From contig NZ_JAHKQD010000018.1 in assembly GCF_018860915.1 (NCBI RefSeq), positions 1 to 64,000 of the forward strand: DNA of 64,000 nucleotides, read 5' to 3'. How positions within the stretch are numbered: position 1 is the stretch's first letter; each line of letters begins with the position of its first letter. The stretch is from Colwellia sp. C2M11. Lineage in GTDB: Bacteria; Pseudomonadota; Gammaproteobacteria; Enterobacterales; Alteromonadaceae. The notes below the pieces were generated by a model. That model saw only the letters and a list, made by a program, of their open reading frames with translations. It had not been told where the DNA came from and made no database searches. The position numbers and the translations under genes were made by a program. Shown in pieces: positions 6,642 through 8,906 of this stretch.

Positions 6642-7589
6642 ATGACTAATAATCTTGAATGCACCATTGGTACATTAGGCCAGAAGTGGGATGCAGCTGA
6701 TAAAAAGCAATGGTTTGAGTTGCAAACAATAAAGCGTTCGTATCAAGATGAGGTTATTAGTAAAATTAATGCTTTATCTTCGCATTTTGATATTGTGCAA
6801 TATGGGGCGTTGTCAGTTGATGAACAGCGCTACCCATTATTTGCATTAAAAAGCAAGCACTGGCAAAGTGATAAAAGTACAGTGCTAATATCAGGTGGAG
6901 TACACGGTTATGAAACGAGTGGAGTACAAGGCGCATTACGTTTTTTACAAAATGAAGCCGCTAATCTAGATTCAGACTACAGTGAATATTTTAATGTGTT
7001 AGTTGTTCCTTGTGTCAGCCCTTGGGGGTATGAAACGATTAATCGATGGAACCCTGATGCAATTGATCCTAACCGATCATTTTATCAAGGGAGTCCTGCC
7101 CAAGAATCTGTAGCCTTAATAGACTTTATTCAATCACTGGATGTTGATATTTTAGTGCACATAGATTTACATGAAACGACTGATACAGACAATACTGTTT
7201 TCAGACCTGCACTTTCAGCACGCGATGCAATTGAACAAACTGTTTGGAATATTCCAGACGGCTTTTATTTGGTTGGCAATACTCTTAACCCTCAAGCTCA
7301 ATTTCAACAAGCGATAATTGATGCTGTTGAAAAAGTGACACATATTGCTCCAGCCGATGACAGTGGTAAGTTAATTGGGGTTGATATAGAGCAGTTTGGC
7401 GTTATAAATTATCCAGGCAGAGAGCTCGGTCTTTGTATGGGGTTAACTGATGCGAATTATGTTACTACAACTGAAGTTTATCCAGACAGTCCTAAATCTG
7501 ATGCTGAAAACTGTATTCTTGCTCAAGTAGCGGCAATAACTGGCGCACTTGATTTTATTCTCAAAAATAATGATTCAATATCACGTTAA
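6642..7589 (+). CDS. M14-family zinc carboxypeptidase / succinylglutamate desuccinylase-like
   Basis: This 315-residue protein fits the M14 metallopeptidase fold shared by carboxypeptidases and AstE/AspA-type deacylases. The zinc ligands fit ISGGVHGYETSG (H-x-x-E, about residues 87-94) and the later His in DILVHIDLHE. The Asn/Arg substrate-binding pair fits IDPNRSF. There is no signal peptide, so it should act in the cytoplasm. AACGAGGT precedes the ATG. It follows efpL closely and may share its transcript, and it ends at a terminator. Its substrate is not clear from sequence. Confidence 0.8.
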   Translation: MTNNLECTIGTLGQKWDAADKKQWFELQTIKRSYQDEVISKINALSSHFDIVQYGALSVDEQRYPLFALKSKHWQSDKSTVLISGGVHGYETSGVQGALRFLQNEAANLDSDYSEYFNVLVVPCVSPWGYETINRWNPDAIDPNRSFYQGSPAQESVALIDFIQSLDVDILVHIDLHETTDTDNTVFRPALSARDAIEQTVWNIPDGFYLVGNTLNPQAQFQQAIIDAVEKVTHIAPADDSGKLIGVDIEQFGVINYPGRELGLCMGLTDANYVTTTEVYPDSPKSDAENCILAQVAAITGALDFILKNNDSISR

Positions 7590-7602
7590 ATTTTGATCTA
7601 TT

Positions 7603-7624
7603 AGCCTAGTTATCTAGGCTTTTT
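7603..7624 (+). terminator. Rho-independent terminator after the M14 peptidase
   Basis: The arms AGCCTAG / CTAGGCT enclose a TTAT loop and are followed by TTTT. Confidence 0.85.
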
Positions 7625-7718
7625 AATTATTATCAGCTACTTTTTTAAGCACAATCTAAACATCTTTTTTAATTTATATTCTTTCAACAACTTTTAAATA
7701 GTCATTTGCTTATTATTT

Positions 7719-7736
7719 TGTGAGAGATCTCTTACA
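7719..7736 (+). promoter_or_regulatory. UvrY/GacA-type activator box for the CsrB-like RNA
   Basis: TGTGAGAGATCTCTTACA is a perfect 18-base palindrome. It equals the upstream site bound by the response regulator UvrY (GacA, VarA) before csrB/csrC genes (consensus TGTaAG-N6-CTTACA). It lies about 185 bases before the likely RNA start, the usual distance for these sites. Confidence 0.85.
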
Positions 7737-7903
7737 TAGGTGTGAGATATATTGTCTTTTTTCTCATGATTTATTTCTACCTCAATATACCTCATTGATT
7801 TAATAAGGATTTATTTGTTTTTTGCTGTTGTCGATAAGCTCCAAGCGTAAACCTATTTATTCGTGTCGTCCTAAATTATATTTTTAAGTGTATTATTAGT
7901 CTT

Positions 7904-8311
7904 GTCAGGAAGACAGAAAGCAGGAAGCTTTTTATAAGTATTGCTAAAGTATGGATTGCCTAGGTAATTATTTATAAAGTAAGGATTACTAGAATTTTAA
8001 GGACGATTTAAGGGATAAATCAGGTGAATAGGATTCTACCAAAGGATAACGAACAAGGATGTGATCAATTAAGGATAATTGATATTAGGAAGATATTGCT
8101 TAGGAAGCACATTTAAATGGAATTAATCTCAAAATGATTGAGAATATAATTTGCAAGGAAGTAAAAGGATTTATAGCTAGGGACAATGAGTAGGGTTTTA
8201 CTCAAAGGATATACTAAGGACAGTTTTTAAGGATGAATGAGAACACTAAATAAATGCAGGATGCATAACAAGCTAGTTAAAAAGTGCAGCCATTAAAGCT
8301 GCACTTTTTTT
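7904..8311 (+). ncRNA. csrB: CsrB/RsmB-family CsrA-sequestering RNA
   Basis: This stretch has no reading frame but holds 20 GGA triplets on the plus strand in about 375 bases of otherwise AT-rich DNA, mostly as AGGA or AAGGAT. Many sit in hairpin loops: ATCAATT-AAGGAT-AATTGAT at 8064-8083 is a perfect stem with a GGA hexaloop, and ATGC-AGGAT-GCAT and GCTT-AGG-AAGC are similar. Repeated GGA hairpins, a length near 400 bases, a strong 3' terminator and an upstream UvrY box are the marks of CsrB-type RNAs, which bind many copies of the translational regulator CsrA. The 5' end near 7904 is inferred from a TATTAT-like -10 at 7891. Confidence 0.88.
8279..8311 (+). terminator. Terminator of the CsrB-like RNA, bidirectional
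   Basis: The stem AAAAAGTGCAGC / GCTGCACTTTTT is followed by more T. It also serves the convergent exonuclease gene, whose stop codon lies inside its T run. Confidence 0.93.
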
Positions 8312-8906
8312 ATGTGTTAATTTTATAATTTGTCATTAAAGCTTTTTGTACACAAATAGCGGAGTGCGCATCGTTTGCGGCATACAAAATCTGACTATTC
8401 TTAAGTGGGTAGGCACTCCAATTAGACTTCTGAGCACCTTTTCCTAGTCTTAATTTAAGTACCATTGCTACAGCAGCACGAGCTCCAACACTATTTTTTT
8501 CATCGGCTAAGTTTTTCAATGTAATAGATAGGTCTTGTGTATTTGCTATTTCAATATTTAGTTTATTACGTAGCTCTTTGTTATCATTTTTAATACCAAA
8601 ACCTACTTTTTCTATTTTTGGATCACTCAATATCTTCCTAGCTGCTGCAACTGCAACAGGAAATCGTGTTGGAAAAAGGTAAGCTTTTTCTGGTGTTGAT
8701 AACTGTATCAAGGTTGGACCTGGGCTTTTCTCACCTTTATTAAAGATTGGCTTACTTTCTGTATCAAAACCAAGGCATACTTCAGTTTGCAATTTTTTTA
8801 ATGCATCATCAGCATCATGTTTGTTTTCAATGATGTTAATATCGTTAAGAGCAAGGCCTTTATACAAGGGCAGTTCTCTTATTTCTTCTTTAGTAGGGCG
8901 AATCAT
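8310..8906 (-). CDS. DEDDy 3'-5' exonuclease domain protein
   Basis: This 198-residue protein is a single exonuclease domain of the RNase D/WRN type, which removes nucleotides from 3' ends of RNA or DNA with two metal ions. Exo I is FDTES (about residues 47-51, Asp and Glu), Exo II is GFGIKND (Asp about 108) and Exo III is YAANDAH with the Tyr-x3-Asp spacing of the DEDDy subtype. It lacks the HRDC domain of true RNase D. It is transcribed towards the CsrB-like RNA and shares its terminator. The substrate is not known. Confidence 0.88.
   Translation of the reverse strand: MIRPTKEEIRELPLYKGLALNDINIIENKHDADDALKKLQTEVCLGFDTESKPIFNKGEKSPGPTLIQLSTPEKAYLFPTRFPVAVAAARKILSDPKIEKVGFGIKNDNKELRNKLNIEIANTQDLSITLKNLADEKNSVGARAAVAMVLKLRLGKGAQKSNWSAYPLKNSQILYAANDAHSAICVQKALMTNYKINT

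Follow-up and report, generated by a model that had tools for sequence, protein, structure and literature searches.

Which product, if any, is encoded by the GGA-studded intergenic DNA at positions 7904 to 8311 of this Colwellia contig? The first-pass annotation of the window (the whole 64,000-nt stretch of DNA analyzed here) read the locus as an unannotated regulatory RNA of the CsrB type, a class that sequesters CsrA. We find this reading very probably right: positions 7904–8311 would constitute the Colwellia csrB gene, encoding a BarA/UvrY-activated RNA that sequesters CsrA. The case goes beyond a count of GGA triplets, since it also draws on an upstream inverted repeat that matches the UvrY site of E. 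coli csrB in every letter and lies at a near-equal distance, on the presence of CsrA, BarA, and UvrY in the genome, on a unit conserved across the genus, and on covarying stems.

Anatomy of the candidate RNA and predicted exposure of its GGA motifs

The candidate RNA is about 408 nt long on the plus strand, with 7904 as its presumed 5' end. It carries 20 GGA motifs spread over 7908–8261 (16 AGGA, 9 AGGAT), and the same strand has no TCC. Our recount agrees with that of the first-pass annotation, which had proposed shuffled sequences of the same composition as the yardstick. The count exceeds every shuffle: 20 GGA were found in none of 5000 mononucleotide shuffles and in none of 5000 dinucleotide shuffles (mean 10.5, SD 2.1, maximum 19). 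A 400-base scan of the window returns the RNA locus as its GGA-densest place (20), followed by separate places with 9 on the plus strand and 8 on the minus strand.

The locus is intergenic and non-coding, and it carries its own intrinsic terminator. The longest ORF within it encodes 30 aa, in line with the earlier remark that it holds no ORF; a 198-aa ORF on the opposite strand overlaps it only at the final bases, 8310–8311. Both proposed ends coincide with structural landmarks: the start at 7904 with a conserved 5' hairpin, GTCAGGAAGAC, and the end at 8311 with the terminator T run. The strong terminator noticed at first pass is indeed present: the terminator scan places it, T run included, at 8279–8311 (plus strand), with a hairpin of 12 pairs at 8279–8309 followed by T. 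This terminator hairpin (8279–8311) lies between the RNA and a convergent exonuclease ORF (8310–8906, minus strand) and may serve both.

The predicted fold compares favorably with those of shuffled sequences (z −2.86; 1 of 100 equally good), and it leaves most of the GGA motifs unpaired or in hairpin loops; folding to count GGA loops was among the checks that the first-pass annotation had proposed. Their mean unpaired probability is 0.764, versus 0.530 (SD 0.046) in 150 controls in which the GGAs were fixed in place and the remaining bases shuffled; none of the controls equaled the observed value. The GGA at 8031 is predicted to be paired, and those at 8103 and 8119 lie near one half. Three hairpins on the plus strand illustrate the display of GGA. 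The first, GTC-AGGAA-GAC (7904–7914), presents the first GGA and is conserved, as judged from the genus alignment and covariation. The second (8064–8083) is a perfect 7-bp hairpin with the loop AAGGAT between the arms ATCAATT and AATTGAT; it had been singled out by eye in the sequence and recurs in the predicted fold. The third, TGCAGGATGCA (8255–8265), holds the last GGA and is supported by sequence, fold, alignment, and covariation. The same partition holds in all 32 RNAs collected from the genus, the window's included: G in GGA is 0.70–0.90 unpaired, versus 0.21–0.35 for other G.

Covariation was measured on 14 aligned Colwellia RNAs, those of the 32 that are closest to the window's. Across 40 local pairs (of 44 predicted; a 4-pair long-range helix was omitted), standard pairing is retained in 96.9% of cells. 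Double-sided changes occur at 11 of the 40 pairs, against a shuffle mean of 4.9, and 1 of 500 shuffles equals that number. Slid versions of the structure bring pairing down to 34–45%, a control over which the consensus structure is favored in that it was derived from the same alignment. These data bear on one alternative: that the locus is AT-rich intergenic DNA whose purine bias yields GGA by chance. The plus strand is in fact purine-rich, with A or G at 252 of 408 bases. However, same-composition shuffles match neither the GGA count nor the accessibility, and the locus shows genus-wide conservation as well as covariation; we consider chance scarcely credible.

Upstream control region and regulatory partners

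A further feature lies outside the span 7904–8311, and the first-pass annotation was silent on it. An 18-bp inverted repeat at 7719–7736 (plus strand), TGTGAGAGATCTCTTACA, is letter-for-letter the 18-mer upstream of E. coli csrB, an identity that marks it as a probable UvrY (GacA) binding site. It stands 185 nt from position 7904; the corresponding distance to the annotated 5' end of E. coli csrB is 191 nt. In E. coli, UvrY binds the csrB palindrome, centred at −183/−182, and a partial site lies 5 bp downstream, according to the available part of the report (PMC4682653). A second half-site is recognizable here by sequence comparison as well: TGTGAGATA, at 7741–7749 (plus strand), follows the inverted repeat after 4 bp, whereas the E. 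coli half-site, TGTAGGAGA, follows after 5 bp. The UvrY-type palindrome has a single match in the 64,000-nt window. Chance alone would supply about 0.6 matches with at most 1 mismatch per sequence of this size, so the weight of the palindrome comes from its position and conservation. One other match within 1 mismatch exists in the genome; it falls inside a coding sequence, a U32-type peptidase by eye, and we take it as chance.

Between the palindrome and the RNA, a probable −10 element, TATTAT (7891–7896, plus strand), ends 7 nt before 7904. It belongs to a GTAnTAT block (7890–7896) that is invariant across 16 aligned upstream regions. A generic sigma-70 scan of 7580–8360 listed zero plus-strand promoters, TATTAT included. 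At the level of sequence, the locus has the order expected of this functional class: a UvrY/GacA site upstream of a probable promoter.

This control region also weighs on a second alternative, in which the GGA-rich sequence is a long 3' UTR of the upstream gene and there is no independent RNA. The RNA does lie downstream of a co-directional M14-like gene that ends at 7589. Yet a terminator-like site (7603–7620) follows that gene, the palindrome and the GTAnTAT block with its probable −10 element intervene, the downstream gene is on the opposite strand, and each of the 28 genus loci read has its own palindrome at 177–188 nt. We judge a 3' UTR very unlikely.

The genome encodes CsrA together with the BarA/UvrY pair, as a CsrB-type reading requires of the host. 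By NCBIfam models, CsrA (64 aa) scores 119.4 bits against a cut-off of 73, UvrY 388.7 bits against 280, and BarA 1143.8 bits against 890. UvrY is 66% identical to its E. coli counterpart; BarA is 43% identical over residues 6–917 of 918. The uvrY gene has uvrC and pgsA for neighbors, an arrangement shared with E. coli; these two were recognized by eye, and the names uvrC, pgsA, alaS, and rlmD all derive from translations and E. coli gene order, not from family searches. CsrD is unconfirmed in the genome, its best candidate reaching 212 bits against a cut-off of 663 (NCBIfam). Locus L106 (3245–5158, plus strand) encodes a GGDEF-EAL protein of 637 aa that scores 214.6 bits for LapD and 212.3 for CsrD, both far below the cut-offs; it is possibly a diverged CsrD.

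A DNA search of the genome gave one place only for the RNA gene, a search that copies with a weaker palindrome could escape. Given that one copy was found, the proposal in the first-pass annotation that the RNA is a main regulator of CsrA in this organism is plausible.

Conservation in Colwellia and the relation to RF00018

The unit is widespread in the genus. With positions 7700–8320 as a DNA query, matches appear in 34 of 36 other Colwellia genomes (G024 and G035 have none), several of them short blocks that cover only the palindrome or the 5' end. We read loci from 28 of the 34 matching genomes, and all 28 contain the complete unit: palindrome, a distance of 177–188 nt, a GTCAGGAAGAC-like 5' hairpin, 15–39 GGA, and a terminator. 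In the unit search, the palindrome could differ by 2 substitutions and the 5' block by 5. Both elements were present in 35 units, the window's included; omission of 3 with no terminator in the stretch leaves 32 RNAs, of 309–665 nt and with 15–39 GGA (median 26). Two neighboring units, each with its own palindrome and 5' block, occur in 6 of the 28 loci (L019, L023, L027, L029, L030, and L032); in three of these (L023, L029, and L032), no terminator follows the second unit within the stretch read. The loci span about 3 kb, and more distant second copies would escape. The longest RNA (L023, 947–1614) has 39 GGA in 665 nt, compared with 22 in 369 nt for E. coli csrB. To our knowledge, 39 exceeds any GGA count in the CsrB class.

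Conservation in the 14-RNA alignment is highest over roughly the last 100 bases. There, directly before the terminator, lies a linker free of GGA, AAGCTAG (8270–8276, plus strand), that is kept in 32 of 32 RNAs. Such conserved non-GGA stretches at the 3' end seem to exceed the needs of titration, and they lend some appeal to a third alternative: a GGA-rich RNA that binds CsrA but exerts its main effect by another route, such as pairing with mRNAs. However, 20 mostly accessible GGAs combined with a UvrY-type site reproduce the design of the E. coli, Shewanella, and Pseudoalteromonas RNAs, as far as the available parts of those reports describe it. Moreover, the linker sits where E. coli CsrB has its RNase E site; according to the available text, the enzyme cleaves there within unstructured RNA that separates the final CsrA site from the terminator (PMC5027483). 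We give this third alternative a very small chance, marginally below that of a 3' UTR, and retain the CsrA-sequestering reading. The coincidence of position makes AAGCTAG a candidate decay (RNase E) element, or it may be a recognition element.

Is this RNA a member of the CsrB family as curated? At gathering scores, Rfam reports zero families within the 64,000-nt window. The Infernal search with the CsrB covariance model, suggested at first pass as a check, fell short: RF00018 scores 11.6 bits in the window against a gathering cut-off of 71 (E 0.86), lower than many other-family matches that we take as chance. The outcome bears out the accompanying forecast that similarity searches may miss the RNA. 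Those other-family Rfam matches are weak, lie mostly at the terminator hairpin, and are in many cases on the opposite strand. Searched against the whole genome at E up to 10, RF00018 has its sole match at the RNA locus (11.2 bits, E 1.25), and at E up to 0.01 it has zero. The laxer of these thresholds (E up to 10) yields a match in 8 of 14 control genomes as well, archaea included, so the RF00018 score itself proves nothing. Rfam cut-offs are reached by none of the 20 Colwellia loci searched (of 29, the window's own included).

Homology to CsrB is nonetheless indicated through an intermediate sequence. An nhmmer profile of 14 Colwellia RNAs was run against 25 other loci; it finds only L109, from another genus of the same family, well (3.2e-30), with one more locus at E 0.93, and zero matches were listed among 500 mononucleotide shuffles. 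By blastn, the 3' end of L109 aligns (77% over 109 bases). L109 in turn matches RF00018 at 3.6e-15 and 59.3 bits, itself under the cut-off, and this is its only Rfam match at E up to 0.001. The chain from the Colwellia RNA to L109 to RF00018 argues that the Colwellia RNA is homologous to CsrB, yet outside RF00018 as curated.

Genomes of other families of the order give a DNA match in 2 of 24 cases, and the 3 matches found outside the genus (one in G055, two in G056) all span the palindrome, each lying 138–251 nt upstream of an above-cut-off RF00018 match (85–90 bits). Among 12 places with RF00018 matches, 8 have the palindrome (at most 2 substitutions). Locus L033, of another family, has the palindrome and lacks the complete unit. 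In a survey of 148 genomes at E up to 0.01, RF00018 matches 81, 50 of them above the cut-off; among the genomes listed, from which 47 match-free genomes are absent, 10 are of the same family (our own included), with matches in 4 and none above the cut-off. At this threshold, individual genomes of the order can carry 5 to 8 RF00018 matches (for example, G139 with 8, and G113, G037, and G044). The number of CsrB-type RNAs per genome therefore seems to differ widely across the order, in a count that leaves overlapping and partial matches unsorted.

Proposed mechanism and comparison with known systems

From the observed anatomy, conservation, covariation, and csrA, uvrY, and barA genes, we infer that the RNA is transcribed, that UvrY activates the gene, and that CsrA is bound and titrated, guided by analogues in E. 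coli (PMC4682653, PMC5027483), Shewanella oneidensis (PMC3171408), and Pseudoalteromonas (PMC9927453, PMC11882849), each as described in the available parts of these sources. In this scheme, BarA would drive phosphorylation of UvrY, and phosphorylated UvrY would bind the palindrome at 7719–7736 to promote transcription from about position 7904. The resulting RNA of about 408 nt would present most of its 20 GGAs unpaired, many of them in the loops of small hairpins. These exposed GGAs would bind several CsrA dimers and keep them from mRNA targets until the RNA decays.

The least ordinary features are the long and the paired Colwellia copies and the AAGCTAG common to 32 of 32 RNAs. We tentatively suggest, as a conjecture that could well prove wrong, that Colwellia holds a separate, fast-diverging CsrB branch missed by Rfam, in part of the genus enlarged (up to 39 GGA in 665 nt) and duplicated side by side, in which the AAGCTAG 3' module serves specifically for decay or for recognition by a protein, apart from CsrA binding.

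The locus would extend to the marine genus Colwellia a CsrA switch that many gammaproteobacteria use; model-based annotation probably misses such RNAs there, as none of the 20 loci reaches the Rfam cut-off. It also offers a simple recipe for such genes: a UvrY palindrome, about 185 nt, a GGA-dense RNA, and a terminator. None of the papers found in our literature searches on Colwellia is, by its title, about a Csr RNA of that genus; an earlier prediction may exist. A 2006 NAR paper reportedly predicts RNAs of the CsrB-type class. A Shewanella sRNA study, in its available part, uses C. psychrerythraea 34H as a comparison, and a 2026 preprint that treats Csr throughout the gammaproteobacteria makes no mention of Colwellia, Pseudoalteromonas, Shewanella, or CsrB in its main text.

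Among known systems, E. coli CsrB (RF00018) shares the density and exposure of GGA: 22 motifs in 369 nt, mostly unpaired (G in GGA 0.81, other G 0.28). It also shares the identical UvrY palindrome with a second half-site just after it. The two differ in sequence to the point that blastn (E up to 1) aligns the UvrY site only and not the RNA. Likened by description, from the available part of the report, CsrB1 and CsrB2 of Shewanella oneidensis are 420 and 421 bp, hold AGGA/ARGGA motifs mainly in single-stranded form, and have UvrY boxes; their BarA/UvrY-dependent expression was shown experimentally (PMC3171408). The two genes are neighbors (PMC3171408), as in part of Colwellia, whereas the search of this genome gave a single copy. 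Pf1, Pf2, and Pf3 of Pseudoalteromonas fuliginea, also likened by description, are marine gammaproteobacterial Csr RNAs. The available portions of the two papers describe, for Pf1, a GacA-type box (CGTGAGACATCTCTTACA) and 21 or 25 GGA, depending on the paper; all 260 of its reported matches are in Pseudoalteromonas, and its authors report that it regulates glycogen in E. coli (PMC9927453, PMC11882849). Systems of this kind are well known; what is new is a Colwellia member unseen by the standard model.
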